From positions 2,759,501 through 2,823,500 of the forward strand of contig NZ_CAHJXL010000001.1 in NCBI RefSeq assembly GCF_903645315.1: a DNA stretch of 64,000 nt, read 5' to 3'. Each line of letters starts with the position of its first letter. The first letter of the stretch is position 1. The notes below the pieces were generated by a model, which worked only from the letters and a program-made list of their open reading frames with translations, did not search any database and was not told the origin of the DNA. Of this stretch, positions 11,942 through 41,320 are shown one piece after another. Origin of the DNA: Victivallis sp. Marseille-Q1083 (GTDB lineage: Bacteria; Verrucomicrobiota; Lentisphaeria; Victivallales; Victivallaceae). Made by a program: the position numbers and the translations under genes.

Positions 11942-12961
11942 ATGATGAACAAAACAAAACCGCATATCCGAATGATCGATATCGCTCGCGAGGCCGGTGT
12001 ATCGCGAGCGGTGGTGACCAAGGTGCTTTCCGGGGCGGGAAGTTCGATTCGAGTGAGTGCGGAAACGGCGGCCATGGTGCGTTCGATTGCGGAAAGGCTC
12101 GATTATCGTCCGAATATTCTGGCGAGCGCCCTGGGGGGACGGTCCAGCCATATCATCGGCGTGCATATCGACAGCATGGCGCCGCAGACTTATTTCCGCA
12201 CGTTGGCGATGACGGAATATGAATTGACGAAACGGGGGTACCGGATCATGATCGCCGTGTCGCACGAGGATGGCCGCAGCGTGATTGAAAGTCTGCAGGT
12301 GTTTCAGCAATACGGGGTCGAAGGGGTCATTTTCATGTGCGACGATTATACCGACCGCGCCGAGGAGTCGCAGCGCGAGTTGGCGCGGCATCAGCCTGTG
12401 ATTTGCATCGGCCGGCCCCGCGTCGACATTCAGGTGCCTTACGTGAACATCGACTGGGGGGCCGGGGCCGAGCAGGCCGTACGGCACCTGCTGGCGCGCG
12501 GCAAACGGCGTCTCGGCATTCTGCTGACGCAACTGGAATATGCGCTCGGCTGCCGGCTTGCCGGTTTCCGTCGCGCCGCCGCCGGAAATACGGAATTTTG
12601 CGACTGCTGGCATTTGAGTTCGCTGGACGGCGGAATCAGCATTCCGGAAGCGATGGAACGGTTTGTATTGCCGAACCGGCTGGACGGCCTGGTCATGCAG
12701 AACGACATTCATGCGGCTTTCATGATGCGGGAATTGCTGCGGTGCGGTATCCGGATTCCGGATGAAATTGCCATCGTCGGACATGACAACCTGGAGTTTG
12801 GCGCCGGTCTGTATCCTTCGCTGACGACGATTTCGGAAAATCATGATCAAATCGGACGCAAAGCGGTGGAATTGCTGTTGAAGATATTGAAAAAGGAAGT
12901 CGTCGGGCCGGCCGATTATCCGTCGGTGGCGCCGTCGTTGATCATAAGGGAATCGACTTGA
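11942..12961 (+). CDS. LacI/GalR-family transcriptional regulator (locus 1)
   Basis: 339 residues. The N-terminal LacI helix-turn-helix is clear: MIDIAREAGVSRAVVTKVLSG, followed by a hinge region ending RPNILASALGGRS. A periplasmic-binding-protein-like sugar-sensing domain fills the rest, with IIGVHIDS at its start and the C-terminal IVGHDNLEFGAGLYPSLTTI segment common to the family. It is the first gene of the five-gene carbohydrate locus that ends with a symporter at 19458 and probably controls it, with an effector sugar released by the glycosidase. Downstream, 33 bases separate it from the pseudopilin gene. Confidence 0.92.
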   Translation: MMNKTKPHIRMIDIAREAGVSRAVVTKVLSGAGSSIRVSAETAAMVRSIAERLDYRPNILASALGGRSSHIIGVHIDSMAPQTYFRTLAMTEYELTKRGYRIMIAVSHEDGRSVIESLQVFQQYGVEGVIFMCDDYTDRAEESQRELARHQPVICIGRPRVDIQVPYVNIDWGAGAEQAVRHLLARGKRRLGILLTQLEYALGCRLAGFRRAAAGNTEFCDCWHLSSLDGGISIPEAMERFVLPNRLDGLVMQNDIHAAFMMRELLRCGIRIPDEIAIVGHDNLEFGAGLYPSLTTISENHDQIGRKAVELLLKILKKEVVGPADYPSVAPSLIIREST

Positions 12962-12994
12962 AAAACAAACCGGAATGATGAAAGGAATGAAAAG

Positions 12995-13666
12995 ATGAAA
13001 AAATTCACATTAATTGAATTGCTGGTAGTTATTGCTATTATTGCAATATTGGCCAGCATGCTGCTGCCGGCCCTGGGAAAGGCCAAAGCGGCAGCCCAGT
13101 CGATCAAATGCGTCAACAATCTGAAGCAGATCGGTTTGGCGGCGGCGATGTATTCGGATAACTACGATGACTATTCGCTGTGCGCTCACTATGATCCGAT
13201 GCTGTATGTCAGCAGCGGTCTGGTGACCAGCGGCAGTTGGGTGAATCTGCTCTATGAACATGAGAATTTGAAGTTGCTGGATATGTTCCGTTGTCCGGTC
13301 GAAGGCAACAACGCCGACGTCTGGTTCCCGAAGTGGACGCATTACGGCGTGGCCTGGAAGCAATTCGGCTTCAACAACACCAGAGACGGCAATCCGCATC
13401 CGGTTAAAATGACGTCGCTGAAACGTCCGTCGTCGGTGGTGTACATCACTGAACGGTGGTTCAATGAAGCCGGCTCGGCGCCGGCATCCGGGGTGAATTT
13501 CGAGAAAATTTATCCGACCAATTCCGACGGCGCGAGTTACGCGGTCAATTTGCGGCACAATAAGAAGGCCAACGTCCTGTTCGGCGACGGTCATGTGCAG
13601 GGGATGGGGTTCGCTGAACTCAACGATATTGACAACTGGAAGGATGATCCGGATGCGAACTGGTAA
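12995..13666 (+). CDS. Prepilin-type N-terminal domain protein with H-X9-DG C terminus
   Basis: 223 residues. The N terminus [26 protein letters not shown] is a type IV pilin-like methylation/transmembrane segment with Glu at +5, and it continues into the [16 protein letters not shown] region typical of DUF1559-like pseudopilins. The residue before the predicted cleavage site is Lys, not the usual Gly. Near the C terminus, [15 protein letters not shown] contains the H-X9-DG motif. Proteins of this kind are strongly expanded in Lentisphaerota and Planctomycetota. Its place between a LacI regulator and an exported glycosidase suggests a surface role in polysaccharide use; this is inference. Confidence 0.88.
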
Positions 13667-16600
13667 GTCCGGCAGGTCCGCTTGGCAGCTGGAATGGCTT
13701 GCCGGTCTGGCGGCGGCGGTTCTGGCGATTGCCGCCGGGGGGAAAGTGCAGGCGGCGACAGAGTTGCCGCTGCCGCCGCAGCGCTGGATTTTGAATACCG
13801 GCGATGAGTTTCCGGGGGCCCGCGGTTCGCTTGAAACGATCGGGCAGGGGGTTCGGGTCGAATCGGATTTCTCGGGCGGCGGCAATTATATCGGCGTCTT
13901 TCAACTGCTGCCGGACAAAGGCAGCGCCGCCGGCTTGGCGTTCGACATAAGCACCCCGGCCGGAGTCATCCTGGTCGAGGCTACTGATGCAGGGGGACGG
14001 AATTTTTTCCAGACGGTTCAGTTGAGCGGTGATTCGGAAGAGGTTCAGCATGTCGTTTGCGGACAACTGACCGGCAGCGCTGAAGAAGGTTTCGGCCGCT
14101 GGGGAGGGCCGGACGGCGACAGCGAAGCCGATCCGGTTCGAAAGATCACGATCCGCTGGATTGCCGCCCATCAGAAGGCGTTGAAAACATTTACGACCGA
14201 GTTGACCAATTTGAAGCTGCGCTACCGGGGCGACGCGCCGCTGCCGGCGGTCCTGCCGGCCGATCCGGCCGGATTGGTGGTGCCGCCCGGCACCGAAAAT
14301 ATTGCCCTGAAGCTGGAATACCCGGTGGAAGCGGCAGCGCTGGACTATCAATTGACCGGTTACGATGGCGGCGTACTCGGTTCCGGCCGGGCGGAGTTGC
14401 GTGATGGGCAATATTTTACGCTGCCGCTGCCGGCGGAAACCGGTTTTTTCGAATTCGTCTTTCCGGTGCTGGACCAGCGCGTCGGCGCGCTGGTACTGGC
14501 GGAATTCGAAGGAGAGCGCGATTCATTTTTTGCCGTCGACGGCGCATTTTCCGTTTTTCAGCCGTTTCGCGACAACAGCCGCGTCGAAGCCTATTTGAAA
14601 TTGCTGCGTTACAGCGGCATCGGCACGATTCGCGATCGATTGACCTGGCAGTCGCTGGAAGGAGAGGGGCCGGGAGAGTTCGACTGGGAATTGAAGCGCA
14701 ACGCCGCGACGATTCGTCGTCTGGCGGCGCAATACGGGATCGAGGTGCTCGACTCCTTTCACGACGCGCCGCTCTGGACCGGCGCGGTTCGCGACCGGAG
14801 TTTGCCGGAATATGCGCCGTATCCGCGGGATTTGATCCGCACGGCGGAGAGTTGGCGTCAAATCGGTGAATATTACCGGAATTGCTGGACGGCGCTGGAA
14901 GTCTGGAACGAGCCGGAAATCTCTTTCGGGGCCGGTTTGCCCGGCGACCAGCCGATGACCTTGCTGCGGGTGCTGGCGTGGGAGTTTGCCGTCAATAAAA
15001 TCGATGTGCCGCTGATTGCCGGCGCCTTTACCGGTTCGGTGACGCACCGCGACATGATGCGGCTTTATCTGGAGAACGGGCTGTTGGATAACGCCGAGGC
15101 GGTCAGTTTTCACGATTATAACCTGCCGGAAAAATTGGAAGGCAAAATTCGTGAGTACCGTGACGTTTTTCAAGGACATTCCGGTTCGGACCTGCCATTG
15201 TGGATCACCGAATGCGGCCGGCCCTGGCCGGTCGGAACGGCGCGCGCCCTGCCGGCGGATGATCGTTTTTCGGCGATGTGCATCGCGATGAAAGCGACGG
15301 AAGCCCGCGCCGGCGGCGTTGCCCGCTTTTTTCCGTTCGTACTGCCTTATTACGAGGAATCGGCCAATAATTTCGGCATGTTCGATCGATTCGATACGCC
15401 GATGCGTTCCTTTGCCGCTTATGCGAATGCGGTGCGGCAGTTGGCCGGCAAACGCTACGCCGGCGATCTGCCGGGCATCGAAGGCGCCCGGCTCAGCCGG
15501 GTTTTTGTGGGCGGCGACGACGCGGTCATCGTCCTTTATACCGGCAGGGAGGATGCGATGGTGAAACTGCCGGCTGACCTGCCGATCGAAGTTGTCAGCG
15601 GCGCCGACGGGCGGCGGATTGCGACGGAACGGTCATGGCGGGGCGGCGACGGAATCTGGTTCGTGACGGCGGCCCGGACGGCGGTTGAGCCGTGGTTGCA
15701 GTCGGAGACGCCGATGATGGAATTGCGGAAAATCGCCGATGGGTACGAACCCGTCGCGCGCCAGGTTCACCCGGTCGTTCTTCAGTACGATTTCGACCGG
15801 GAGGCCACGTCGTGGAATTTGAATGGTTATCAGTTCGAGGACCAAAGGCGGATTGTATTGCCGATCTGTTTCAACAATCTGTCGGAGGAGACGATGGTTG
15901 TCCAGCCGGCGTTGCAGTTGCCGCCGCAGGCCGTGGTCCTCGAAGCGCTGCCTGAACAAATTGAAATCGGGCCGCGCCGCCGGATGGAGTATGCGCTGGT
16001 GCTCGATCTGGATGCCGCATTGAAGGCGGAGTCATTGTGCGAAGTGGTCATCCGGGATGAAAACCGCCGGGCGGAGCCGTTGGTGATCGGCATCGCCGCC
16101 TGGAAGCGGGAAATTCTGGAAGCGGCGGCGGGCTTGCTGCCGGATGACTTCGATTTCACCGGCAACCTGCCGGATGCCGTCGTGCTGGAGGGCGCGGAAT
16201 GCTGGGAAAAATGGGACGGGGCGTTTCTGCCGAATATCCGCGCCGGATTTTTGATCCGCTACTCGCCGGAAAAATTGCAGATTGTCGTCCGGGTGGAGGA
16301 CAAGGAATACAATCAACCCTATCCGCTGGCCCAGGCGTGGCGGGCCGATTCGGTTCAGGTTGCACTCCAGACGCGAGCGCCGGGCCATCGGCCGGGCCAG
16401 AACTTCACTGAAGTCGGAGCCGCTTGCTGCGATGGCGAGCCGGGGTTATACCTGTACGGACTGGAAGATTCCGCCCGGCGCCCCGGCGGCAGGCTGACCG
16501 AATCGCGCCTGCAATGGCTTCGGACTGGGCAGGGGTATGTTTACAACATTGAGCTGAATGCCGCCGAATTGGGGCTGCCGGTGCTGGAACCGGGAACCCA

Positions 16601-16742
16601 GCTGGGCATGGCGTTGATCGTCAACAGCAGCGCCGGCGTGGACCGCGACGGTTATCTGTATTGGGGAGACGGGATTGGAAAAAACAAGAATCCCCGGGCG
16701 TTTAATTTATTGGAACTGTCGGAAAAGCAATTGGAAAAATGA
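13653..16742 (+). CDS. Exported clan-A glycoside hydrolase (GH39-like) with CBM9-like C-terminal module
   Basis: 1029 residues. ATG 13653 lies just inside the 3' end of the pseudopilin gene, with AAGGA 10 bases upstream; the start gives a signal peptide ([20 protein letters not shown]). A beta-rich N-terminal region is followed by a TIM-barrel with WNEPEISFG, where Glu420 is the likely acid/base, and WITECGRPW, where Glu520 is the likely nucleophile. The 100-residue spacing fits clan GH-A, GH39-like enzymes. The C-terminal region (about residues 830-1020) has ENW/KWDG- and [11 protein letters not shown]-like elements of CBM9-type domains. The substrate is unknown. The next gene overlaps by 4 bases. 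Confidence 0.8.
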
Positions 16743-17611
16743 AATTTATTTTAGGTATGGTATTGGGTGCTCTGCTGGCGATGGCGGACGGGGCAAGCCG
16801 AGAGGCGGCGGATCAGCCGGCCGGTTCGATTCGGGTGGTGAGCTGCAATTTGCGCGGGGCATTGATTGACGACGGCCCGGACAGTTGGGAATACCGGAAA
16901 GAGAGCTGTCTGGAGATACTGAAAGAGATCGATGCCGATATCATGTGTTTTCAGGAATTGCAGACGCCGAACCGCGAGGCGTTGGAGGAAGCTTTTCCGG
17001 ATTACTGTTTTTTCGGGGCGCTGGACCGTCCCGCCGGCGGCCATCCGATGAACGGGATTTTATACCGGCGCAGCGCTTTCAAACTGCTCGGCAGCGGCGG
17101 TTATGCACTGTCGGACCATCCGCATCTGTCCGGCAGTATCGACTGGAATCACAGTTGTCCGCGCTTTGTCAACTATCTGATTCTGGAAGAGAAAACGACC
17201 GGCCGGCGGTTTCGCATCGTCAACACCCATCTGGATCATGAATCGCAAATTGCCCGGGAGAAAGGCGCCGCGCTGATCAATGAAGAGAGCGCGGTTTACG
17301 ATCCGGCCATGCCGCAGATTCTCGCCGGCGACATGAACTGCATGGTTTCCAATCCGGCGGTCCGGGCGTTGCTGGCCGCCTCCTGGCAGGATTCTTTTTT
17401 CCTGGCGACCGGGCAGGAGGAGCCGGGACGCACCTTCCACGCCTTCCAGGGCCGGGAATGTACGGTTGACAGTTTTCCGGGAAAAATTGATTTTATCCTG
17501 GTCCGCGGCGCATTGGAGGTGACCGGGGCAGAGATTGTCGATCGAGTCGGCAAAAATGGCCGGTATCCCAGTGATCACTTTTTCGTTGAAGCCGTTGTGC
17601 GGTTTCGATGA
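16739..17611 (+). CDS. Exported endonuclease/exonuclease/phosphatase-family enzyme
   Basis: 290 residues with a hydrophobic N-terminal signal ([15 protein letters not shown]). The EEP fold motifs are in order: VVSCNLRG, the metal Glu in CFQELQ, NTHLDHE, the GDMNCMVSNP block, and SDHFFVEAV at the end. This superfamily includes DNases, sphingomyelinases and inositol phosphatases; an exported member in a glycosidase operon more likely cleaves a phosphodiester or phosphate on an extracellular substrate than DNA. It overlaps the glycosidase gene by 4 bases (ATGA), so it belongs to the same operon. Confidence 0.82.
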   Translation: MKFILGMVLGALLAMADGASREAADQPAGSIRVVSCNLRGALIDDGPDSWEYRKESCLEILKEIDADIMCFQELQTPNREALEEAFPDYCFFGALDRPAGGHPMNGILYRRSAFKLLGSGGYALSDHPHLSGSIDWNHSCPRFVNYLILEEKTTGRRFRIVNTHLDHESQIAREKGAALINEESAVYDPAMPQILAGDMNCMVSNPAVRALLAASWQDSFFLATGQEEPGRTFHAFQGRECTVDSFPGKIDFILVRGALEVTGAEIVDRVGKNGRYPSDHFFVEAVVRFR

Positions 17612-17646
17612 CTTCAGCAGGCTGAAAATCCATCATCGGGGAACTT

Positions 17647-19458
17647 ATGGACACACCGACAGCACTTTGGATAGACAGCGCGATCCTGGCGGCTTATCTG
17701 CTGGCGTCGTTTCTGATCGGCATCTTCGCCAACCGGCTTTTGAAAAAAGACGTTTCGACCGAATCGGGTTATTTTCTCGGCGGTCGGAGCATGCCCGGCT
17801 ATTTGACCGGCATCTCCAACGCGGTCAACGCGATGAATTCCGACGTGATGCCGACCTATATGGGGCTGGCGCTGGCGGTCGGACTGCCGGTCTGCTGGTT
17901 CTATTTCTCCCGGGCCGGGCTGGGCATCTTCCTGGCCGGCATGCTGTTCTACGCCCGCTGGAAACAACTCGGCGTCGCCACCGGACCGGAGTTCTTCGCC
18001 GTCCGTTTCGGTTCCGACGGCGGCCGCTTCATCCGGGTGTTCACTTCATTGTATTCGGTGCTGTTCGGCATCATCCCGTGGATGGGAGCCGGTCTGCTGG
18101 CGGCCCATCTGATTTTCGGCTCCTTCTTCGGCTATGAAAGCAAGGCGCTGTCGCTGCTGATCCTGCAGCCGCTGATGCTGCTCTACGTCTGGTTTTCCGG
18201 TTATGCCGGCGTCCTGGTCACCAACCTGTTCCAGACCGTCATCATCGTCGTCGCCTGCGTCACCGTCTGTCTCGTCATCCTGTCCCATTTCGGCGGGCCG
18301 GCCGGTCTGACCGCTTCCATTCAGCAGGCGATGCCGGCGGAAACCGGCACGGCGGTGCTGTCGATCTGGCCGCAGAACGGTAACGCCTATGTCAGCCCGC
18401 TGCTGGTGGCAGTCTGGATCATTCTGACCGGCGTCGGCGTCGGCGCCAATGTTTCGGTCGACGGCCAGCGGATCATCCCCTGCAAAAATGTCCGGGAAGC
18501 GGTCAAAGTCAGCATCTGGACCCAGCTGGAGCTGTTCATCATGCTGCTGCTGGTGACGCTGCCGGCCCTCGGGCTGCTGGCGCAGACGCCGGAGTTGTTC
18601 TCCGCGCCGGCGGCGGAACGCGAAGCGATGTACGGCGTGCTGGTCCGCGAATACCTGCCGGTCGGCGTCAAGGGGCTGACGCTGGCGGCGCTGGCGGCGG
18701 CGGTGATGTCGACGGTCAGCACCCAGTTGAATTACAGCGCCCAGACCCTGACCCATGACGTGCTCGGCTCCTATCGGCATTTTTCGCCGGTCCGCGGCGT
18801 CCTCTACGGCCGGCTGGCGATGATCGTCGTCATGCTGCTGGCGATCGTCGTCGTTTACTGCGCCGGCAGCCTGATCAGGATCGCCATCTTCATCACCGGC
18901 CTGCTCGGCTCCTCGGCGCTGATCGGCTGGGGATACTGGTGGTACTGGCGGATCAACCTCTATTCCTGGTATGCCGCGATGCTCGGCGGGCCGCTGGTCT
19001 ATCTGGCCTGCTTCTTCGGCCTGCCGCGGATCCCGTGGTGGGCGGCCCAGGCCGCCCTCAGTCCCAACCACGCCGACATGATGGGCATCTGCGCCGGCGT
19101 GGTCAGCATGGCGCTGACCACCGTCGTCACGCTGATCGTCACGTTTCTGACCCCGCCGGACGATATGGACGTCCTGACCGAATTCTACCGCCGGGCCCGG
19201 CCGATGGGGGATTGGAAGCCGGTGCAGGAGGTGCTGCGCCGCCGCGGCGAACTGCGCGCCGAACCGCGCGGGCTGCTGGCCGGCGGCACCGTCACCGCGT
19301 TGTGCGGCGCCGCCTGGCTCTGCCTGCTGATCATGGGGCTGTCCGAGCTGTTCGTCGGCCGCTATCTCGAAGCCGCCGGGTTCGGGACGGTTGCCGCTCT
19401 TTTCGCCGTCATCTTCAAGAAGCTGTTCGACTGGCACTTGAAACGCCTCGAAGCCTGA
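17647..19458 (+). CDS. Sodium:solute symporter (SSS family), locus 1
   Basis: 603 residues with about 13-14 membrane segments. The N-terminal FLGGRSMPGYLTGISNAVNAMN region and the NVSVDGQRIIPC and LAALAAAVMSTVSTQLNYSAQ segments fit the SSS fold; the last contains the Na+-site Ser/Thr pattern of this family. A cytosolic loop and an extra C-terminal helix extend the core. It closes the operon that begins with the LacI regulator, and probably imports the sugar released by the 13653 glycosidase. GGGGA (17637-17641) precedes the ATG. Confidence 0.9.
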   Translation: MDTPTALWIDSAILAAYLLASFLIGIFANRLLKKDVSTESGYFLGGRSMPGYLTGISNAVNAMNSDVMPTYMGLALAVGLPVCWFYFSRAGLGIFLAGMLFYARWKQLGVATGPEFFAVRFGSDGGRFIRVFTSLYSVLFGIIPWMGAGLLAAHLIFGSFFGYESKALSLLILQPLMLLYVWFSGYAGVLVTNLFQTVIIVVACVTVCLVILSHFGGPAGLTASIQQAMPAETGTAVLSIWPQNGNAYVSPLLVAVWIILTGVGVGANVSVDGQRIIPCKNVREAVKVSIWTQLELFIMLLLVTLPALGLLAQTPELFSAPAAEREAMYGVLVREYLPVGVKGLTLAALAAAVMSTVSTQLNYSAQTLTHDVLGSYRHFSPVRGVLYGRLAMIVVMLLAIVVVYCAGSLIRIAIFITGLLGSSALIGWGYWWYWRINLYSWYAAMLGGPLVYLACFFGLPRIPWWAAQAALSPNHADMMGICAGVVSMALTTVVTLIVTFLTPPDDMDVLTEFYRRARPMGDWKPVQEVLRRRGELRAEPRGLLAGGTVTALCGAAWLCLLIMGLSELFVGRYLEAAGFGTVAALFAVIFKKLFDWHLKRLEA

Positions 19459-19578
19459 AAGGAAGGGCTGAAAAAGCTGCGGTTGAAACAGCCGCAGAAC
19501 AACCGTCTGCCGTGTCCGGGACGGGCCGTAAGGCGCCGCGGGACCTTGCCGGAATCCGGCGGCGTCCGGCCGCTGCTC

Positions 19579-19770
19579 TTACCCGGCCGACATGGTTGTT
19601 TCGGCGGTCTCGAACTGCTTCAGCCTTGCTGCCAGATGCTCCCGCCTTTGATGGTACTCATTTTCGATAAGTCGAAATTCCGAATCGAGCAACTCAATTT
19701 CCTCGAGTATTTCAAGGTGTTCTTTGGCTTTTTCGATCGCACTGCGGACATCTGTTTTCTGATTTTGCAT
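19579..19770 (-). CDS. Small coiled-coil protein overlapping the upstream gene out of frame
   Basis: 63 residues, highly charged and helical (AIEKAKEHLEILEEIELLD then EHLAARLKQFE), so a coiled coil is likely. The start is supported by a strong Shine-Dalgarno: GGAGG with a 4-base spacer before the ATG. About 150 bases of it are shared, in another frame, with the 3' end of the 196-residue gene upstream. That overlap is unusual; either both are expressed or the upstream protein has an accidental C-terminal extension. The function is unknown. Confidence 0.6.
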   Translation of the reverse strand: MQNQKTDVRSAIEKAKEHLEILEEIELLDSEFRLIENEYHQRREHLAARLKQFETAETTMSAG

Positions 19771-20210: not shown

Positions 20211-20253
20211 GGTGTTTTCTCACAATCGGGTTGAAAATTAAGATTATCCTGAA

Positions 20254-21420: not shown

Positions 21421-21432
21421 GTCGCCCGGCAG

Positions 21433-32489: not shown

Positions 32490-32672
32490 TTGACAGAATC
32501 TGATGTCAATAAATATTTTGAAAGAGGCAGACTTGTGGGATTCTTTTATATTTTAGGCATTAGTTTGGTTATATGCTTAATTGAATGCCTGGCGACCGCA
32601 ATCATTTTTATTTATTTCCGCTTGCATCAGCGGTTGGTCGGCGGCTTAGTGACAAACCCATCGTCCGAATAA
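32490..32672 (+). CDS. Candidate 60-residue membrane protein in an AT-rich patch
   Basis: TTG-initiated frame with one or two hydrophobic helices (GFFYILGISLVICLIECLATAIIFIYF). A possible promoter, TTGATC then TATAGT with an 18-base spacer, lies about 30 bases upstream. The sequence is much more AT-rich than the neighbours and its 3' end overlaps the convergent symporter gene. There is no ribosome binding site, so it may be a decayed or foreign fragment. The remaining bases from 32227 to 32489 show nothing convincing. Confidence 0.3.
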   Translation: MTESDVNKYFERGRLVGFFYILGISLVICLIECLATAIIFIYFRLHQRLVGGLVTNPSSE

Positions 32673-34591
32673 TCGATTCGGCGGCCTTGCAGATCCCGGA
32701 ACAGCCGGCCGGCATCGCGGCAGCCGCCGCAAAAAATCCAGCCGGTACAGACGATTCCCATGCCGATGTTGAGCCAGACATTCCAGTACCAGTAATCGGG
32801 CCAGAAGGTTGCCGGCAGCCAATCGGGGCGCAGAACGCCCAGCAGGGTGACAATCAGGAAAAATCCCCACCAGGCCGTCATCCAGGCGAAACTACCGTAA
32901 AAGAGCAGTCGTTCGAAGCGGGAAAAATCAGCTGCTATTCCCAGCAGCCTCCCCAGTTTTGGCAACCCGGCGGCCGCTGTTTCGGAGCATTCCTGCCGAT
33001 CCTGGTAACGCCCCCGGTGCAACAGCCGGTCGAGGTTGAATGGCTGTTTTTCCGGCAGCAGCAGCGAGCCGAGGACGTAAATAACGCTCGCTGCCGCCAT
33101 TGCGATAAAATAGATCCATTGTCCGTTTAGCGGGAATGCCGTATTCGTCCAGCGCGACCAATTCTGTTCGAGGACGATTCCACCGAATCCCAGCAGCGTG
33201 CCGGAGAGAAGCGCCAGGTAGGCCCCCCCGGTGGTGCCGCGCCGCCAGTAAAGCCCGCCGATGATCACGGCGCCCGCGCCACCCAGATAGATTGCTCCGG
33301 TCAGTGCGAAGAATTGCAGGACATAAGTTTTCAGGTCGAACAGGCAACTGAACAAAAAAGCGAAAACCGCCACTCCGACGATTGATAGCCGCAGCAACCG
33401 CAGATGCCGCCCGGGTTCGAACGGTTTGCCGCGCAACGGCACCACGATATCCTGGATGAAAATCGTTCCCCAACTGTGCAGATAGGTATCGTCGAAACTG
33501 ATCGCCGTGCCGATCACCACGGCGGCGAACAGGCCGAACAGACCGGGCGGCAGCAGATTGGAGATGGCTAGCGGCACGGTCATCTGTCTTTGCATTTGGG
33601 CGTCGCCGGCGGCGGCGATCTGTTCCTGGATGGGAACGGCCAGTCCGGCGAATTGCGGCAGATGGAGCACCGCGTAGGCGGTCAGCGGGATCAGGATGGC
33701 GACGCTGGTGTTGCTGACCAGCGTGCGCCAATTGCTGATCACGCCGGCCATCACCGCTTCGTGCGGCGTTTTGGCTGCCGCGTTGTAGCCGGAATTGCCC
33801 TGCCAGCTTCTGGCGTTGTAGATCATTCCCACCACGCCGATCAGAAAGTAGAAGATGTTGAAATCCGAAGTGGCGCTGCCGACCAGTGGATCGATTCGTG
33901 ACACGCCGGGCGGGGTGTCGCAGGCCAGTCCGGCCATCAATTCCGGCCAGGAGAAATTGGCCAGCAAATAAAGCGAGATGACGACGAAACTCAACATCAT
34001 GATGCTGCCTTGCAGGAAATCGGTGATCATGATCGCGATCTGACCGCCGGAGCAGGCGACGAAAACTGCCAGGCTCAGGTAGGCCAACATCATCAGCGGG
34101 ATGGTCGGCAGCGGATGACCGGCGATTTCCACAGTGCCGGGCAACCGTAGGAAGAAAACCAGCAGCCGGGCGGTGATGGCCGGGAAAATGCCGTAATTCA
34201 GCACACCGGAAATCCAGCAGAGCAATGCGGAAAAGAGGCGGAATCGGCGGCTGTAGCGCTCTTCGAAAAATTGGGCCAGTGTCAATGCCCGGGTCTGCCG
34301 GAAACGATAGACGATGAAACCGGTCAGCGCCAGAAACAGCGAAACCGGCGTTCCCAGCAGCGACCACCATTGCGGCGGCAAACCGGTCGAATAGGTCATT
34401 TCCCACAACGCCACCAGCCAGACAGCGCCGAGGAAGGTGTTGGAAACTGTCAGCAGATAGCGTCCGGCGACCCGGTTGGCGGCCAGGAAATCGGCGACGC
34501 CGCGCAGGTAGCGGCGGCTGTATTGCGCCAGCAGGAAAATCCCCGTTGGCATTGCGCCAATGATGCACCAGTCCAGCCAGTGGATGTTCAT
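32627..34591 (-). CDS. Sodium:solute symporter (SSS family), locus 2
   Basis: 654 residues with about 13-14 membrane helices. The N-terminal YLRGVADFLAANRVAGRYLLTVSN segment and the ISFDDTYLHSWGTIFIQDIV segment match SSS-family structure. It is the last gene of the minus-strand locus, overlapping the giant exported protein gene by 4 bases, and probably takes up the product of that enzyme. The protein differs in detail from the locus 1 symporter, so the loci are not simple duplicates. Confidence 0.88.
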   Translation of the reverse strand: MNIHWLDWCIIGAMPTGIFLLAQYSRRYLRGVADFLAANRVAGRYLLTVSNTFLGAVWLVALWEMTYSTGLPPQWWSLLGTPVSLFLALTGFIVYRFRQTRALTLAQFFEERYSRRFRLFSALLCWISGVLNYGIFPAITARLLVFFLRLPGTVEIAGHPLPTIPLMMLAYLSLAVFVACSGGQIAIMITDFLQGSIMMLSFVVISLYLLANFSWPELMAGLACDTPPGVSRIDPLVGSATSDFNIFYFLIGVVGMIYNARSWQGNSGYNAAAKTPHEAVMAGVISNWRTLVSNTSVAILIPLTAYAVLHLPQFAGLAVPIQEQIAAAGDAQMQRQMTVPLAISNLLPPGLFGLFAAVVIGTAISFDDTYLHSWGTIFIQDIVVPLRGKPFEPGRHLRLLRLSIVGVAVFAFLFSCLFDLKTYVLQFFALTGAIYLGGAGAVIIGGLYWRRGTTGGAYLALLSGTLLGFGGIVLEQNWSRWTNTAFPLNGQWIYFIAMAAASVIYVLGSLLLPEKQPFNLDRLLHRGRYQDRQECSETAAAGLPKLGRLLGIAADFSRFERLLFYGSFAWMTAWWGFFLIVTLLGVLRPDWLPATFWPDYWYWNVWLNIGMGIVCTGWIFCGGCRDAGRLFRDLQGRRIDYSDDGFVTKPPTNR

Positions 34592-37500
34592 GGCTGCCGC
34601 TCCGGAACCGAATTGACCGGGTGTAGAATTGCCGGTGGAGCCGGTCGGCGTGATCGGGTCGACAGTTCCACCAGCCGGCCGCGGACGACATCGTCATGCC
34701 AAGTTCGGACGACAAAACGGTTGCCGGCCGGCGGCAGCTCGAAACTGAGACGCTTGATCACGGTCATGCCGTCGTACCGGACGTCGAGGACGCCGTCATG
34801 CAGGTTGATCACCAGTTGCTTGAATTCATTGCGGTTCAGCGGGATCGATTGGAAAATCCAGCCGCGCCCATAGGGATCGGCCGGACCGGTGGCCATCCAG
34901 CCCCAGCCGGGAAAGCCGCCGCCATAGGTGAGTGTCAGTTTCCCCAATTGAAAGGCGAAACGGTCCGGCAGTTTGACCTGCATTTCCACATACAAATTCC
35001 GTCCGAACTGCGGTTCGAACGTTGCCACGGCCGCGCCGGTTGCCGGCGAGGCCGCCAGCACCAGTTCGTTCGCTGTCAGCTTGCTCTCCGGTGCCGCGTT
35101 GGTAAGCTGCCACTGCGCGGCGTCGAAACGGGTGACCGTCCAGGCCGGTTCCTCCGTAATTTCTTCAGGCGAAGGCGGAAATTCCGGTTCGCTTCCGGCC
35201 GGTTTGACGACCAGGAGCCGGCAACTGTGCGGCGCCAGTTCGTCGTGTAACCGGCTGCCGTCGACCGGTTCCCGGCGCAGATAATCGGCGACTTCGATCA
35301 CCCGCCCCGGATACAGTTTGCTCAAATCCAGTTGATATTCGCCCGGGCGGTAACGCAAATTGCCGACTACGACCAACGATTCCCGTTCGCTGTAATAGAG
35401 CGAAACCAGGCAGGTTTCCGAGTTGAAGCCGAGTCGGGTCTGAGGGCGCCAGAAGGGATGGAACTCCCGGTCGGGGCCGCCGAATCGGGTCAGCAGTTGC
35501 AGGTCGAGCTCTTCCGGTTCGGTGTCGGTATTGACGGCGTACTCGCTGTTGAAGAGCAGCGCATAGACCAGCGCCGTGTCCAGACCGTCGTAGTTGTGCA
35601 GTTGTTTCGGCCAGTAGATGGTGCGCCAGCCCCACGGCAGGCCGGAATAGCCGACGGCGAACATCGCCCGGGACGGGTAATAGCCGCGCCGGAAACGCAT
35701 CAGTTGTTCGCCTTCGAAGTAGGCGTCGAAGAAACTCAGGGTATTGACGTCGATTCCGCCGCCGGTGTGGGCGATCAGCCAGAATTCGTCGCCGGTGGCG
35801 TCGAAAAGGCCGCGCAGCCGTTTCAGAAATTCCCGCTGCTTGACTACCAGGCTGGGAGTGTCTGCTTCCAGCGCTGCCACTGTCGGGCGGCCGCAGCCGT
35901 ACGGATGTAGCACGTTGGCGTCTCCCCAGGGAACCGAAAGTCCGTCGCTCATGATGCCGCGAATACCGGTTTCGGCGATCAGCTGGCGGTAGTTGTGCAG
36001 TTGCAGATCACCCTCCGGCCCACGTTTGCAGGTCGCGTAACAATCCTTGTCCTGCCAGAAATAATAACGCCATTGCGGTTCCAGCTCCAGATCGTCGCGG
36101 AACTCTGTCATCGCCGGGGCGTCCTCCTGCAGACCCTGGCAGCAATAGAGGGTCAGCAACCGGTTTTGCTCTGCCAGCTCTGCCACCCGGGTTTTCAACG
36201 CTTCCGTTCTGCCGAGGTCGGGGTAGCCGTGCCAGCGGCTCCAGCCTTCCCACCACCAGGTCGCCGCGGAGCGCACCGGGCGGTTCGGATAAGGCTTGGT
36301 GGGAGTCGGCTGCAGGAAGAAACGGAAAAGCGCCGAGCGGCCCTGCAATTGTCCGGCGCCGTCCACCAGCCGCACGATCAATTCATCGCCGTCCGCCGTT
36401 TGGCGCAGTTCCAGTTGATGGCGGATATCCCGTGACCGGAATGGGTCGGTATCGTAATTAAACGAGAGTCCTTCCTCTTCATTGCCGACCCATAATGTCG
36501 AGGCCGGGCCGCGGTAGCCGGCGCCGGTCAGCGCGCCGGCTTTCTGAACCGAAACACCGGGTAGCAGGTATTTCGCCACGCCGTCCGCCAGCGGAATGAT
36601 GACCGTCACCTGGTCGATATCCGCCAGCTCTGGTGTGGTGAGTTCGAATTTGTATTCGATGAAGCCGTCGAAGTCGACTTTGGCCCGCGCTTCGATGGCG
36701 GTGCCGTCATCGGCGTGCAGGCTGCCGGCAACTCTTGCCTGAGTGCCGTCGAGCGCCAGTTGGGCCGGCGGTCCGGAAAGTTTCAATGTCGTTCCCCGCC
36801 GGGAGATGAGCAACCGGGCCGGACCGCCGAGCAACGCATCTCGCGCTCCGTTGCGCCGGACTGCCGACGGCAGCGCGTTCGGGGCGAATTCCAGCGACTG
36901 ATGCAGCAGTTTCAAATGATTGTCGACGAGTTCGGGCAGCGTCCACGGCGCTGGGATTTTTTGATCGATATATTCGGCCCCGGCGTCGGTTCCCAGCCAT
37001 TCCGGCATGGTCATCGCCGGGCAGACGGTCGTCACTTCGGCAACCGGTTTGCCGGCTGGATCGCGGACTGTGAAATGGGCTTGGCGTTCCGGCTGGTCGC
37101 CCGGCGGCAGAGGGCAGACCAGCAGCGCTTGGCGCTCTTCCAGCAGATTCCGGTCGCGGTCGACGGCAGGGAAGAATTGCAGCACGCCTTCCACCGGGAC
37201 GCAGCCGCTGACTTCCAGCCGGGCGGACAGCTCCGGCTGTTTCCCGGTGATCTTGACGCTGCCGACCACCACGCCGTTCAACGGCCCGTATTTGATCGCC
37301 GCCCGGCAGGTCGCTGCCGGCAACGTCTGCCGCCGGGGAGGCGGAAACCGTTCCCGCGTGGCGTCGCCGCCGAAGACGAACCGGCCGAACGGCATCGCTG
37401 CGTAACCGCCATAACTCGGCAAATGCCAACCCAGCATGTCCGGCGGACGGAAACGGAAGAGATTGCCATAGATGGTCCGACCGGCGACGGCTTCGAGTCC

Positions 37501-38091
37501 GCAGGCGACAAACGGAATGCGCAGTTCCACCGTCCAGCCTTCGCCCGGCTGGACCGAAACGGCGGAATCGAACCCGGCGACTTCCAGCGGCGCTTCGTTG
37601 AATTGGCGCTGTCGGGCGTTGACGGCGTTGACGGTGAAGAGGTAGTAGAAATCGGCGGCAGCCACTTCGCCGTCCAACGCTCCCTCGTAACCACCAACGT
37701 TGATTTTATCCCGGACCGCGATCTCCGGGTCAGCGACGCCGAGAACGACTTGAATGGCGTCGTCATTGTTGAAAAAGAGGTCGTGCCAGGGACGCTGGTA
37801 GGCTTCGGGATAACCGGGAGTACCATCGAAACAGCGCGCTGCGACATACAATGCTTCGTCGTCGAACATCAAGTGGAATTCTGTTGCCACCGCGGCCGCT
37901 GTCGGCGAACCCAGCGGCCGGATTTGCCGGATTACCGCCGCCTGCGACCACTCTTCCGGAGAAAAGCGGCCGTCGATGATTGGTGCGGTGCCGGTTTGGA
38001 ATGGAATGACGGCCTGCGGCATTTCCGGCCCGGCGGCGGCAGCGGTGAACAGCGGCAGGAAAAAAAGAGCGGATAAGTGGCGAATTGACAT
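34588..38091 (-). CDS. Giant exported glycosidase-like protein (CBM9-like N-terminus, DUF6067-like core)
   Basis: 1167 residues with a signal peptide (LSALFFLPLFTAAAA). The N-terminal ~200 residues have the CBM9-type pattern: IIDGRFSPEEWSQAAVI, then FDDEALYVAARCFD. A long beta-rich middle region precedes a core with TWWWEGWSRWHGYPD, IRGIMSDGLSVPWGD and FWLIAHTGGGIDVNT, which recalls the DUF6067 glycoside-hydrolase-like family; catalytic residues are not certain. The last 200 residues look like a concanavalin-type sheet domain. A beta-galactosidase or GH42-like alternative cannot be excluded. Confidence 0.7.
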   Translation of the reverse strand: MSIRHLSALFFLPLFTAAAAGPEMPQAVIPFQTGTAPIIDGRFSPEEWSQAAVIRQIRPLGSPTAAAVATEFHLMFDDEALYVAARCFDGTPGYPEAYQRPWHDLFFNNDDAIQVVLGVADPEIAVRDKINVGGYEGALDGEVAAADFYYLFTVNAVNARQRQFNEAPLEVAGFDSAVSVQPGEGWTVELRIPFVACGLEAVAGRTIYGNLFRFRPPDMLGWHLPSYGGYAAMPFGRFVFGGDATRERFPPPRRQTLPAATCRAAIKYGPLNGVVVGSVKITGKQPELSARLEVSGCVPVEGVLQFFPAVDRDRNLLEERQALLVCPLPPGDQPERQAHFTVRDPAGKPVAEVTTVCPAMTMPEWLGTDAGAEYIDQKIPAPWTLPELVDNHLKLLHQSLEFAPNALPSAVRRNGARDALLGGPARLLISRRGTTLKLSGPPAQLALDGTQARVAGSLHADDGTAIEARAKVDFDGFIEYKFELTTPELADIDQVTVIIPLADGVAKYLLPGVSVQKAGALTGAGYRGPASTLWVGNEEEGLSFNYDTDPFRSRDIRHQLELRQTADGDELIVRLVDGAGQLQGRSALFRFFLQPTPTKPYPNRPVRSAATWWWEGWSRWHGYPDLGRTEALKTRVAELAEQNRLLTLYCCQGLQEDAPAMTEFRDDLELEPQWRYYFWQDKDCYATCKRGPEGDLQLHNYRQLIAETGIRGIMSDGLSVPWGDANVLHPYGCGRPTVAALEADTPSLVVKQREFLKRLRGLFDATGDEFWLIAHTGGGIDVNTLSFFDAYFEGEQLMRFRRGYYPSRAMFAVGYSGLPWGWRTIYWPKQLHNYDGLDTALVYALLFNSEYAVNTDTEPEELDLQLLTRFGGPDREFHPFWRPQTRLGFNSETCLVSLYYSERESLVVVGNLRYRPGEYQLDLSKLYPGRVIEVADYLRREPVDGSRLHDELAPHSCRLLVVKPAGSEPEFPPSPEEITEEPAWTVTRFDAAQWQLTNAAPESKLTANELVLAASPATGAAVATFEPQFGRNLYVEMQVKLPDRFAFQLGKLTLTYGGGFPGWGWMATGPADPYGRGWIFQSIPLNRNEFKQLVINLHDGVLDVRYDGMTVIKRLSFELPPAGNRFVVRTWHDDVVRGRLVELSTRSRRPAPPAILHPVNSVPERQP

Positions 38092-38126
38092 GGCTGGACC
38101 TCTGGAATTCCGGATTGTTCAGGGGG

Positions 38127-38780
38127 TTAAAGACTGAGATAACGGCCGGTTTCAACATGGCCGTCGACCGCCACGAAATTGACGCGGTTGTTGTGCGGAA
38201 ACCAGACGTCGGGAGTGTCCAGCCAGTGACCGTAACCGTAGGTGGCGACGTTGCAGCGCTCATCAGTGATGGCCCGTTCGGAGGGATTGTCCAGCGTCGA
38301 CGCTTTCTGATTCCAGACTGCCCCCCAAAACTTGCCGCCGATCTTATTGGTATCGCTTGAATCGCGCTGGTTCCACGGATAGGAGGCGATCATACTCCAA
38401 TTGTAAATGGCCGGATTGTTGGTGGAATGAGCATCCAGCGGGCACCAGACGATCGGGTATTTTTTACTGTAGGCGGTTACCCGGATGGTTTCCGGCTCGG
38501 TATTGTTGCTCATATACGGAATCAGATAGCAGACCCAGTCGGTACCGGTGCCGAATTTGATCTCGCCGTTCTGGTACCAGTAAAAATCCGGAAAACGATC
38601 CTCCGAATCGTTGAGATAGAAGTTGAAAAACAGTCCGACCTGTTTCAAATTGTTGATGCATTTGGTTGACTGGGCGGCCGCTTTGGCCTTGGCCAAAGCC
38701 GGCAGCAACATGCTGGCGAGTATGGCTATAATGGCAATAACGACCAGTAGTTCGATGAGTGTGAATAAATTTTTTCTCAT
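38127..38780 (-). CDS. Prepilin-type N-terminal domain protein with H-X9-DG C terminus (locus 2)
   Basis: 217 residues from the ATG at 38780; a longer in-frame start at 38822 would put 14 residues before the pilin-like segment and is less likely. The N terminus is [28 protein letters not shown], with Leu instead of Gly before the cleavage point, then [16 protein letters not shown]. The C terminus has [17 protein letters not shown] with H-X9-DG. It lies 35 bases upstream of the giant glycosidase gene, mirroring the pseudopilin-then-glycosidase order of locus 1. Confidence 0.87.
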
Positions 38781-38940
38781 TTGTGTTGCCCTTCTTTCCT
38801 TGATTATTTCATTTTTCATCAAAAGCCATCCTGCCCGATTGTGGATTGAATGGTCGCCAAAACGTTGAAATGCGCCGATTGCTCTCTACCTCCTTTCGAT
38901 GTGCCGGTTGCTCCGGCGGCGGCCGGCGTTGCGCCGCGTT

Positions 38941-40242
38941 TCAGTGGTTTGCCTCCCCGGCGGCGAAGATGGCCATCAACGCGTCGGCATAGATGGCCAT
39001 GCCACGTCCATCCGGATGATTGATGCCGTTGACCATCATGATATTGTAGGGAATTCCCTCCCGCCACAGCCGGCCGTAACGTCCGGCCGCGTCGGCGAGG
39101 GCAATCTGATGGTCGGCGGCGAATTTCCGCAGGAAAGCGACATAGGGGCGCGGATCGTTTTCCAGGGCGGGTCCGTTTTGAGCGGTCAGCCCCATTCCTT
39201 CCGGGTAAATATAGTGCGGTGTCAGGATGATCCATTCGAAGCCGCGGGCCCGGAAATCGGCCAGTGTTTTCGAATAAGCCTGCGGCCAGACTTCCGGCGC
39301 CATTCCCGCATCGTTGACGAATTCGGAAATCACCAGATCCGGTTCGGCGCCGAGCACCGTCTCCGCATAATTGAATTCGGATCCGGGCGGTTCGGCGTGG
39401 AAAGACGGCATTACCCGGCCGCCCCAGCCATTGGTGATCAGCTCGATCCGCGCGGCGGGATAACACCGGCGCAATCGTTCGACCAGCTGGAATTGCCAAC
39501 GCTGCGCTTCCGGCAAATAGGTGCCGGCGGTGACGCTGTCGCCCCAGGCGAGAATGCGCACTTTTTCGCCTTTTCGCAATTTCTCCAGGGTGTTCGGCAG
39601 GAAGCGCCGTTGGGCCGCCGCGTTGGCCGCCGCGTTGGCCGGTTCGGCGACGGTTTCCTGAATGGGGTAAAGATTGGTCCGTTCCAATTTTTCCGTCCCG
39701 GGTTCCAGAAAGACATTCAACAACCGGCGTTCCCCCTCTTGCAGCGGCGGCAATTCCGGCAATGCCACCGCCGGCCGGCCGATTGCATAGCGCAGTTGTC
39801 CCGATGGAGCGGCGATCACCGAATCCAGGCGCATCGGCCGGTAGCGATAGCTGATTTTGACCGCGCTGTCCGGTCCGATGGCGCCGCCTTCCAGCCGGCC
39901 CAATGCCGCCCATTTCTCCGAAAATTGATAATCGCGGCCCTGCGTCAGCGGCGTGCCGTCCGCCAGCTCCACTTGCACGGAAGCTGCTTCGAGCGCACCG
40001 GGCAGCGAACACTCGGCGGCGGCCAGCTGCCGCAGGACCGTCCCCGCTGTCCAGTTGTCCAAAGCACGGTAAAGCGGCAGGGCCTCGTAAAACTCCTGAT
40101 TCACCTGGATCGATTGCGGCGGCGGCACGGCAAAACGCGTCCCGGCGAAGGCGAAGGTCCACGGCGCGACAATTTCCAGTTCCGCTGCCGCCGCCAGCGT
40201 GGCGGCGGCCAGAAACAATGTGGTCAGAATTCCGAATTTCAT
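38941..40242 (-). CDS. Exported SGNH/GDSL-family hydrolase
   Basis: 433 residues with signal peptide (FGILTTLFLAAATLAAAA). The SGNH blocks are visible: the nucleophile in AWGDSVTAG, the Gly of block II in TNGWGGRVM, the Asn of block III in FVNDAG, and the final Asp/His in GINHPDGRG. The first ~200 residues form a separate beta-rich domain. ATG 40242 is preceded by GGGAGC at a 4-base spacing; a TTG at 40254 in frame is unlikely. Such enzymes often deacetylate polysaccharides, so an esterase that trims acetyl groups for the glycosidase is a reasonable guess. Confidence 0.86.
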   Translation of the reverse strand: MKFGILTTLFLAAATLAAAAELEIVAPWTFAFAGTRFAVPPPQSIQVNQEFYEALPLYRALDNWTAGTVLRQLAAAECSLPGALEAASVQVELADGTPLTQGRDYQFSEKWAALGRLEGGAIGPDSAVKISYRYRPMRLDSVIAAPSGQLRYAIGRPAVALPELPPLQEGERRLLNVFLEPGTEKLERTNLYPIQETVAEPANAAANAAAQRRFLPNTLEKLRKGEKVRILAWGDSVTAGTYLPEAQRWQFQLVERLRRCYPAARIELITNGWGGRVMPSFHAEPPGSEFNYAETVLGAEPDLVISEFVNDAGMAPEVWPQAYSKTLADFRARGFEWIILTPHYIYPEGMGLTAQNGPALENDPRPYVAFLRKFAADHQIALADAAGRYGRLWREGIPYNIMMVNGINHPDGRGMAIYADALMAIFAAGEANH

Positions 40243-40243
40243 T

Positions 40244-41320
40244 TTAGCTCCCAATCGAAAATTTTTGGTCGAATTGCGATTCCGCCAGCGGGATTATACT
40301 TTCGCGTTCCGCCAGTTTGGCCGTGGCCCGGTGTTGCCGGAGCGGCGGCGGCGAGTCGGGGGACGCATTTAACAGCTCCAGCGTGATTTCCAGCAGGTGA
40401 TCGATATAGTCGTCCAGATCGAAATAGATCGAACTCAAGCCGGGATTGGCCAGCCAGGCGCTCGGCTGGTTATCGAAGCTGATCAACGCGAGATCCTCCG
40501 GAATCCGCCGGCCGCATTCTGCCGCCGCCTTGAAGGCCAGCATGGCGAAACTGTCGTCGTGGCAGAAAAAGGCGCTGACCCGGTCTGGCCGGAGAAGCAA
40601 TCGTTTCAAATCCGCCAGCATTGTCGGCTCCGGCAGCAGTCGAGGCGTATGAATGACCCAGTCCGGCTGAAACGGCAGACCGTGCCTGGCCAGAAAATCA
40701 CGGTAGCGCGCGTACCGGGTATAGGGCGACGGCGAAGTGGCGTCGAAATGATTGAGGCCGAGATAGCCGATCTGGCGGTGTCCGGCCTGAAAGAGGTATT
40801 GCATCGCCATTTCGCAACTGCCGGACATATCCAGCCCGACATGCGGTACCGGCAGCGTTTCGAGCGCGTCGAACACCACCAGCCGCGGCAGAGCCGTCAA
40901 TTCCCGGCGCAACAGACTGAAGCGTTCGACATCCAGCGGGCCGAACAGAATTGCCTCGGTTTTGATCTGGCGGAAAAAGTTCAACGCCCATTTTTCCCGC
41001 TGCAGGCGGTCGCCGCTTTCGAAAGGATTGATGATGATGGTATTGGCGTAATAGTTCTCCTCGGCCAGCCGGTGCTGCAACTGGGACAACAGATTGCAGA
41101 ACCACGGCGTCGCCGGCGGCACGCATAAACATACCCCGATCGTGCCGGTCCGGCCGGAGAGCAGGGAACGGGCCAGATAGTTCGGCTGGTAGCCGATGCT
41201 GCCGGCGTAATCCCTGATCTGCCGGGCCAAGGCTTCCGCGACCCCCTTGCGGTAGTTCAGCGCATTGCTGACCGTCACCGGGGAAACGGAGAATTTGCGG
41301 GCTATTTCAACGATGTTCAT
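40244..41320 (-). CDS. LacI/GalR-family transcriptional regulator (locus 2)
   Basis: 358 residues. The helix-turn-helix is MNIVEIARKFSVSPVTVSNALN with the LacI hinge following (IGYQPNYLARSLLSGRTGTIG). The sensor domain has PDRVSAFFCHDDSFAMLAF and the LALISFDNQ strand at the usual places. It is the first gene of the minus-strand carbohydrate locus and has a consensus promoter with a perfect-arm palindrome just upstream (41328-41382). Its stop lies 2 bases before the SGNH start codon. Confidence 0.92.
   Translation of the reverse strand: MNIVEIARKFSVSPVTVSNALNYRKGVAEALARQIRDYAGSIGYQPNYLARSLLSGRTGTIGVCLCVPPATPWFCNLLSQLQHRLAEENYYANTIIINPFESGDRLQREKWALNFFRQIKTEAILFGPLDVERFSLLRRELTALPRLVVFDALETLPVPHVGLDMSGSCEMAMQYLFQAGHRQIGYLGLNHFDATSPSPYTRYARYRDFLARHGLPFQPDWVIHTPRLLPEPTMLADLKRLLLRPDRVSAFFCHDDSFAMLAFKAAAECGRRIPEDLALISFDNQPSAWLANPGLSSIYFDLDDYIDHLLEITLELLNASPDSPPPLRQHRATAKLAERESIIPLAESQFDQKFSIGS

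Follow-up and report, generated by a model that had tools for sequence, protein, structure and literature searches.

Pseudopilin genes placed ahead of large, often exported proteins recur across the genome of a Victivallis species

A 64,000-nt window of the 4.82-Mb genome of Victivallis sp. Marseille-Q1083 (NZ_CAHJXL010000001.1:2,759,501-2,823,500, or C1:2759501-2823500; coordinates without a prefix are those of the window) carries two carbohydrate loci, each with a gene for a pseudopilin, a protein with a prepilin-like N-terminus. Here we report that both are members of a series of about 150 pseudopilin gene runs spread over the genome. At the core of each run stands a pseudopilin of the DUF1559 family (PF07596), directly followed by a large, often exported hydrolase. 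Half of the runs lie behind a sugar-type repressor, and a second hydrolase or a symporter occurs as an optional extra. The original prediction had described the two loci as instances of one five-part kit. Its core survives in widened form: across the genome, pseudopilin and enzyme make up a unit to which a sugar-type regulator is often joined. The kit of five is largely refuted.

Pseudopilin gene runs across the genome

A Pfam profile search of the genome yielded at least 150 N_methyl proteins, all above the cut-off (150 of 198 candidates were scored). Further profile searches gave at least 26 matches to TIGR04294, the H-X9-DG model (150 of 203 candidates scored), and 58 LacI helix-turn-helix (HTH) matches, 55 of them above the cut-off. 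Gene neighbourhoods were read in 30% of the genome, window included, which comprised stretches around scored matches and 11 hand-selected controls, each 20 kb long and at a distance from known pseudopilins. These stretches contain 146 DUF1559-type pseudopilins, only one of them in a control stretch. Contig C1 holds 140 and contig C2 holds 6, against an expectation of about 28 from its length, a split that is not a full census because the stretches followed scored matches. Genes were called by a home-made program based on codon bias and start scoring, which set some starts wrongly (12074 for the regulator of locus 1, 16757 for its second hydrolase) and missed pseudopilin N-termini, calling 127 where the motif gave 146 DUF1559-type proteins. 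Signal peptides and membrane spans were assigned by crude hydropathy rules.

The gene behind the pseudopilin is usually large. With a downstream gene in view for 145 pseudopilins, the next one lies on the same strand in 131 cases, and it encodes at least 500 amino acids (aa) in 102 of these, compared with 92 of 496 background pairs (p 1e-36), whose genes were drawn mostly from pseudopilin-rich stretches. The crude rule assigns a signal peptide to 92 of the 131 downstream proteins and to 178 of the 496 background ones. The neighbourhood check suggested with the original prediction, when made in its own genome, finds pseudopilins strongly enriched beside large, often exported proteins and sugar-type regulators. 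Pfam scans covered 123 downstream proteins (42, 46 and 35) and 93 of 106 same-strand upstream neighbours, after exclusion of 8 of the 131 and 13 of the 106 (pseudopilins, cut genes and genes already in the other set). The 25 commonest families of each downstream scan include GH123_cat (22), DUF4838 (12), GH42 (at least 9) and DUF6259 (6), together with some from regulators, a helicase and oxidoreductases.

Upstream, the scans name Peripla_BP_3 in 46 proteins, the GntR HTH in 34 and the LacI HTH in 20. As Peripla_BP_3 outnumbers the LacI HTH, many of the upstream regulators are probably hybrids in which a GntR HTH is joined to a sugar-sensor domain, presumably of the AraR type. The LacI genes themselves are also placed far from randomly: in 25 of the 58 cases a pseudopilin on the same strand follows at a distance of 0.6-1.6 kb, as against a mean of 1.0 and a maximum of 5 in 2000 rotations. 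The rotations were wrapped at the highest listed position of the contig and used 151 places, namely the 150 N_methyl matches, a few of which are pseudopilins of the type II secretion system (T2SS), and one H-X9-DG place.

We then divided the stretches into gene runs, which end at any gap of more than 200 bp or where the stretch itself stops, 6.5 kb downstream; runs holding two pseudopilins were counted twice. A non-membrane protein of at least 500 aa is present in 107 of the 146 pseudopilin runs and in 71 of the 392 runs without a pseudopilin. The corresponding numbers for a LacI/GntR-type sugar regulator, called by an iterated profile seeded with the two LacI proteins of the window, are 71 and 23, and 53 pseudopilin runs hold both parts. 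The runs are small, with two genes in 41 of the 146 and three in 38.

The two loci of the window and their symporters

Locus 1, on the plus strand, is ordered LacI, pseudopilin, GH1, EEP and SSS in the Pfam scan; GH1, like GH2 below, is here the name of the protein of that locus.

11942..12961, plus strand: LacI-family regulator (Pfam LacI and Peripla_BP_3 above cut-off)
12995..13666, plus strand: pp1, DUF1559/H-X9-DG pseudopilin (PF07596, 33.1 bits, cut-off 23.3)
13653..16742, plus strand: GH1, exported glycosidase-like protein of 1029 aa (longest open reading frame (ORF) from 13593; 13653 is the better start)
16739..17611, plus strand: endonuclease/exonuclease/phosphatase (EEP)-fold hydrolase with a hydrophobic N-terminus (PF03372, 65.3 bits)
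17647..19458, plus strand: SSS symporter (PF00474, 113.4 bits, cut-off 22.8)
17639..19463, plus strand: repeat unit with the SSS gene alone (99.3% identical to C1:371128-372952)

In addition to PF07596, pp1 scores above the cut-offs of TIGR04294 (24.9 against 19 bits) and of the prepilin N-terminus model TIGR02532 (22.5 against 16.3 bits). The start of GH1 at 13653 gives a signal peptide, both by eye and by the crude rule. GH1 has no catalytic domain model above the cut-off in Pfam and no NCBIfam match. Its scores against Glyco_hydro_cc are 16.3 bits as a whole and 18.8 bits as a fragment, both below the cut-off of 21, and it weakly matches the sterylglucosidase SglA (8exd, E 2e-6). Divergent from the LacI gene of locus 1, the window also encodes a protein of 1035 aa (8541-11648) that begins in a signal-like manner, is matched by no Pfam family and may belong to the same regulon.

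Locus 2, on the minus strand, is ordered LacI, SGNH, pseudopilin, GH2 and SSS in the same scan.

40244..41320, minus strand: LacI-family regulator (Peripla_BP_3, 92.6 bits)
38941..40242, minus strand: GDSL/SGNH-type hydrolase of 433 aa (PF13472, Lipase_GDSL_2, 36.7 bits; signal peptide by the crude rule)
38127..38780, minus strand: pp2, pseudopilin (TIGR02532, 22.3 bits, cut-off 16.3)
34588..38091, minus strand: GH2, exported protein of 1167 aa with a CBM9-like N-terminus and GH123_N (PF19543, 47.2 bits, cut-off 22)
32627..34591, minus strand: SSS symporter (PF00474, 46.3 bits, cut-off 22.8)

The HTH of this LacI protein scores 24.6 bits in the window scan (cut-off 27) and 28.8 bits in the genome search. 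For the SGNH gene, an ORF at 38819-40162 was discarded, as it has no Pfam match and looks like a wrong frame, and was corrected to 38941-40242. pp2 falls just below the PF07596 cut-off (22.7 against 23.3 bits); its H and DG stand at the H-X9-DG spacing, yet TIGR04294 gives no match at E ≤ 0.001. GH2 has no GH123_cat match at E ≤ 0.01 in the Pfam scan despite its GH123_N domain, and its enzymatic activity is therefore predicted at most.

These assignments confirm that each locus holds a LacI regulator, a pseudopilin, an exported glycosidase-like protein of more than 1000 aa, a second exported hydrolase and an SSS symporter, and that 4-base overlaps join genes in both, two being present (GH1/EEP at 16739-16742, GH2/SSS at 34588-34591). 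A CBM9-like module had been claimed for both giant proteins. It is supported for the N-terminus of GH2, which matches CBM9_1 at 27.4 bits as a fragment (cut-off 23.4) but only at 21.5 bits, below the cut-off, within the whole protein. For GH1 it is not, since its C-terminus has no Pfam match at E ≤ 1, and BLAST finds no real match between this segment and the N-terminal segment of GH2.

What does not recur is the symporter. If the two loci were regular counterparts of polysaccharide utilization loci (PULs) with an intrinsic symporter, regulator, pseudopilin, large enzyme and SSS should keep company elsewhere, and they do so in only 3 of the 146 runs: the two of the window and one at C1:3040122, whose SSS gene is placed ahead of the regulator. 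SSS genes occur in 4 of the 146 runs. Distant symporters may escape the 6.5-kb run ends, a limit from which the genome-wide census is free. This census found 13 SSS (SSF) genes by profile search, with 8 within 8 kb of a pseudopilin (5.4 expected from rotations, p 0.11), 4 within 5 kb (3.8 expected) and 2 within 3 kb (2.5 expected), and hence no clustering of SSS around pseudopilins beyond chance. Polytopic membrane proteins of any kind are no commoner in pseudopilin runs (4 of 146) than in others (24 of 392, p 0.13), and in Victivallis vadensis the SSS slot is filled by MFS_2. Thus, of the five parts, large protein and sugar-type regulator are each enriched in pseudopilin runs, and the SSS symporter is an occasional extra rather than a core part. 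The three full runs favour an intrinsic symporter, and we consider a true five-part kit very improbable; the window by itself showed five parts because it happens to contain two of the three fullest runs. At L099, an SSS gene stands directly behind a pseudopilin; its copy at C1:1490725 (L078), 97.6% identical as far as read, contains two internal stop codons in the genome search.

Inheritance, copying and exchange of parts

In a scan of named genomes, GH2 has relatives in V. vadensis (52% identical) and in two Kiritimatiellae metagenome-assembled genomes (47% and 45%), and a genome of the same family (G009) holds a V. vadensis-like GH2 locus. The V. vadensis locus (L031) encodes a LacI regulator 50% identical to that of locus 2, a 668-aa protein, a pseudopilin, the GH2 orthologue, an MFS_2 symporter and a GH43 protein. 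The 668-aa protein has no Pfam match and no BLAST match to the SGNH protein. With MFS_2 in the place of SSS, the symporter slot is kept and its family changed. Such exchanges, in this version of locus 2 and within the genome, bear out the earlier observation that the slots persist while the parts change. In the same V. vadensis locus, a truncated second FTLIELLV segment lies in frame ahead of the pseudopilin ORF next to GH2 (L031 8736-9908), as if another pseudopilin start had been inserted.

Some pseudopilins appear to have been inherited along with their enzymes. Among 12 near-full-length GH2 orthologues (L154-L165), a pseudopilin lies in the DNA retrieved with six, the five from the own genus and genus g2 and one from another family; overall it is found at 10 of 30 GH2 loci, where the partial matches L166-L183 have flanks largely inside the gene. 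pp2 is the best own match for the pseudopilins beside GH2 orthologues in four of the five other genomes with an adjacent pseudopilin (L155-L158), where it leads all 146 own pseudopilins with 70-82 bits, the next best reaching 36-44. For 29 foreign pseudopilins with a downstream gene of at least 300 aa, an enzyme homologue exists in the own genome in 12 cases. Two of these homologues are strong, one being the GH2 locus, and their partner pseudopilins take rank 1 of 146 (the second, L238, thus agrees on co-inheritance); the other ten are weak, with partners at ranks 24-119. GH1 loci carry a pseudopilin at 12 of 30 places, including the six long family matches fetched (L184-L186, L188-L190), and pp1 is the best own match only for L190, by a narrow margin (58 against 55 bits). 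At loci of a DUF4838 enzyme, a pseudopilin is found in 12 of 15, upstream in 8 and downstream in 4.

When the pseudopilins of the genome are compared with one another, their similarity is correlated with that of their enzymes (Mantel 0.23, n=120) and with that of their regulators (0.25, n=81), the permutation maximum being 0.09 in both. In the subset with both neighbours (n=68), the pseudopilin-enzyme correlation lies only just outside its permutations (0.23, maximum 0.22), next to 0.18 for pseudopilin and regulator (maximum 0.12) and 0.29 for regulator and enzyme (maximum 0.16). In 9 of 22 enzyme pairs at least 50% identical, the pseudopilin similarity is 0.4 or more; in this count and the pair counts below, pairs have members in common and are not independent. 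Judged from these comparisons, the parts are loosely linked and reshuffled, apparently co-inherited at some loci and swapped at others.

Repeats within the genome show several units of copying. The repeat with the SSS gene of locus 1 is 99.3% identical over 1825 bp; the homology sets in 8 bp ahead of the ATG and ends 5 bp beyond the stop codon. Three near-identical copies are confined to one pseudopilin gene (94.9%, 90% and 96%), and two of them end at the stop codon. Other repeats are not gene-exact. A pseudopilin-enzyme pair has been copied together (96.7% over 3334 bp), and a further repeat, 80.8% identical, spans a regulator and the first part of a pseudopilin. An enzyme repeat of 93.7% over 4601 bp continues for 60 bp behind the gene and does not reach back to the gene start. 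Two enzymes (L058 and L087) are 97% identical in protein and 98% in DNA. The region of their signal peptides has diverged, and the pair is therefore weak evidence for a recent swap; it may reflect gene conversion between old copies.

An IS110-family insertion sequence is present in 18 full copies (L275-L292, e.g. C1:3196504-3197841), 100% identical after rounding, of which two have the same flanks and four lie before pseudopilins. Its right end (GGGAG) stands 4-10 nt before the ATG of an ORF of at least 80 codons in 16 of the 18 copies, where random placement would give 18.5%. The left end, too, has such a sequence (AGGAG). The element seems to target Shine-Dalgarno sites such that the next gene keeps a ribosome site, a preference not described in the part of PMC3196728 available to us.

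Possible roles of the pseudopilins and comparison with known systems

In an alignment of 100 pseudopilins (95 of the 146 own and 5 from relatives), Cys41, Cys113, His196 and Asp206 are invariant, as is much of the N-terminus. The nucleotide identity of the N-terminal segment averages 0.80, close to the 0.78 expected from codon usage, which rules out recent copying as the source of its conservation; the segment is held at the protein level. Matches of the alignment profile to GspG and to solved pilins, PilA among them, are confined to roughly its first 75 positions. No solved chain is matched by the C-terminal part, and no glycan-binding domain is therefore recognised. As a side observation, Thr at +2 is encoded by the rare codon ACA in 77% of the pseudopilins (5% in the genome), and nearby codons also lean to TTG, ATT and GAA.

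Canonical prepilins carry Gly at position -1 of the cleavage site (class III signal). This residue is found in one of the 146 own pseudopilins, where Lys, Asn, Arg or Ser stands in 112, in 12 of 52 pseudopilins from six other genomes, and in none of the nine T2SS pseudopilins of the own genome. The shared lack of Gly in the two sets fits one shared peptidase. Three T2SS gene clusters with T2SSF and T2SSG (GspF and GspG), one of them with T2SSE in view, were found, all on C2 (L139, L141 and L142), each with further prepilin-like genes.

We propose that the runs are regulated pseudopilin-enzyme units in which the pseudopilin serves as an exchangeable subunit of the T2SS pseudopilus and aids its enzyme, an explanation to which we give an even chance. 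The repressor would release the run when a breakdown sugar appears, so that pseudopilin and enzyme would be made together. The pseudopilin would be matured by the prepilin peptidase of the cell, would join the pseudopilus and would help the co-made enzyme to reach the cell surface or to stay there. The sugars would enter through a symporter usually encoded outside the run. Since similar pseudopilins stand before unrelated enzymes, the fold of the enzyme is probably not what the pseudopilin recognises; a generic action, or one on the glycan, is more likely. A broader version, which we hold to be rather doubtful, is a combinatorial system of secretion or capture. In such a system, about 150 interchangeable pseudopilins, made under sugar sensors along with exported hydrolases, would re-tip one shared T2SS pseudopilus to suit the available glycan, and regulators, pseudopilins, enzymes and symporters would move between loci, at times as single genes with gene-exact borders.

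Several findings weigh against this proposal. Pseudopilin, large protein and regulator come together in only 53 of the 146 runs, and 15 pseudopilins stand alone. The three T2SS stretches, as read, contain no DUF1559 pseudopilin, T2SS genes not having been searched genome-wide, and the residues other than Gly at -1 might be a sign that the proteins escape cleavage altogether. Among relatives, six of the 12 near-full-length GH2 orthologues lack a pseudopilin in the DNA at hand (two of these loci are short), as do, by gene list and motif scan, the GH2 loci of the two named Kiritimatiellae genomes. Neither of the two pseudopilins in the fifth GH2 genome (L163) is pp2-like, and the closest GH1 homologue (L185, 47% identical) lies beside one that is not pp1-like. 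In six other Lentisphaeria genomes, the downstream gene is another pseudopilin in 10 of 42 cases, and it reaches 500 aa in only 4 of 12 in G008 and in none of 3 in G010. Within the genome, a homologous enzyme accompanies the nearest pseudopilin in only 18 of 120 cases (permutation mean 6.4, maximum 15). No homologous gene is found among the next three for 19 of 29 pseudopilin pairs of similarity above 0.5, and pseudopilin similarity is about 0.15 or less in 13 of the 22 enzyme pairs. This low pairing is evidence against a dedicated enzyme partner, and the idea of a chaperone or adaptor for one enzyme fold is weakened by the shuffling.

Another possible, though less probable, reading, which takes up the surface component of the original prediction, is that the pseudopilins build thin surface pili that bind glycan, each run adding a glycan-specific binding subunit beside its enzyme. 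The correlations of pseudopilins with regulators and with enzymes are consistent with it, similar pseudopilins beside unrelated enzymes would fit a shared glycan, and the N-terminal profile matches PilA and other pilin chains. Precedents, as far as the accessible parts of the papers go, are a pilin-type protein in glycan handling by the MUL2 locus of Akkermansia (PMC13174399) and pili of Fimbriiglobus on chitin (PMC11131199). The C-terminal part, with no match to a solved chain and no recognised glycan-binding domain, speaks against it. It is unlikely that the pseudopilin is a hitch-hiker, expanded and copied into operons for exported proteins with no function tied to them. Copies limited to a single pseudopilin gene and the shuffled pairings would suit such a gene, but the N-terminus held at the protein level, the four invariant residues and a place before a large protein and behind a regulator that is far from random argue against it. 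That the pseudopilin acts in secretion or at the surface is offered as a hypothesis.

The arrangement recurs in part of the class. N_methyl matches were found in all 78 sampled class genomes, from 3 to at least 91 per genome, with 19 genomes, the own included, at 91 or more. In a sample of the phylum, PF07596 matched at E ≤ 0.001 in 106 of 193 genomes (about 12 candidates scored per genome). First-look candidates numbered up to 270 in this class; in the genomes listed from other classes they did not exceed 46. The 52 pseudopilins of the six other genomes have a downstream gene on the same strand in 42 of 51 cases, of at least 500 aa in 24 of 42 and with a crude signal peptide in 22 of 42; these sites are the best-scoring rows of the class and phylum scans, and each genome offered little DNA on which to train the gene caller. 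By genome, at least 500 aa is reached in 10 of 14 (G012), 5 of 7 (G028), 4 of 4 (G067) and 1 of 2 (G042).

Large DUF1559 families of some Planctomycetes-Verrucomicrobia-Chlamydiae bacteria have no established role in the openly licensed literature we found, and the place behind a sugar-type regulator and before a large exported protein provides a testable hypothesis for them. Poorly annotated proteins behind pseudopilins, such as the 1029-aa GH1, become candidate glycan-active enzymes. The pairing of pseudopilins with glycosidases in Lentisphaerota was not found among the openly licensed titles and abstracts listed; it may have been noticed earlier elsewhere.

Compared with the T2SS pseudopilins GspG-GspK, the DUF1559 set shares the N-terminal prepilin segment and, in this genome, a residue other than Gly at -1. 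It differs in its place away from the three T2SS clusters read, its length of mostly 200-260 aa, the H-X9-DG motif, the two invariant Cys and its roughly 150 copies. The Planctomycetes, with 74 DUF1559 genes in Rhodopirellula baltica (PMC2754498) and 68 paralogues in Planctopirus limnophila (PMC10632474), resemble it in family and in paralogue number. In the available parts of both papers, these proteins are described as unknown or solute-binding, and pairing with a regulator or an exported enzyme is unmentioned. The Akkermansia MUL loci, from a related phylum, likewise involve a pilin-type protein in glycan foraging, a likeness by description only, and in the accessible part of that account they are single conserved loci, not serial enzyme runs (PMC13174399).

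The original prediction saw in the two loci a counterpart of Bacteroidota PULs without SusC/D. For SusC, the genome agrees: the TonB-dependent barrel PF00593 has no match at E ≤ 0.001 in the own genome, in a search whose control was positive in 3 of 14 named genomes. Bacteroidota PULs cluster a regulator, exported glycosidases and sometimes a transporter, and are repeated with changing enzymes. The Victivallis runs are alike in their clustering of regulators with exported glycosidases, at times with a transporter, and in their many repeats, and unlike the SusC/SusD systems in having no TonB-barrel match, a pseudopilin in a constant slot and small gene runs. The arrangement thereby points to a way in which Gram-negative cells that lack a TonB barrel could organise their use of glycans.

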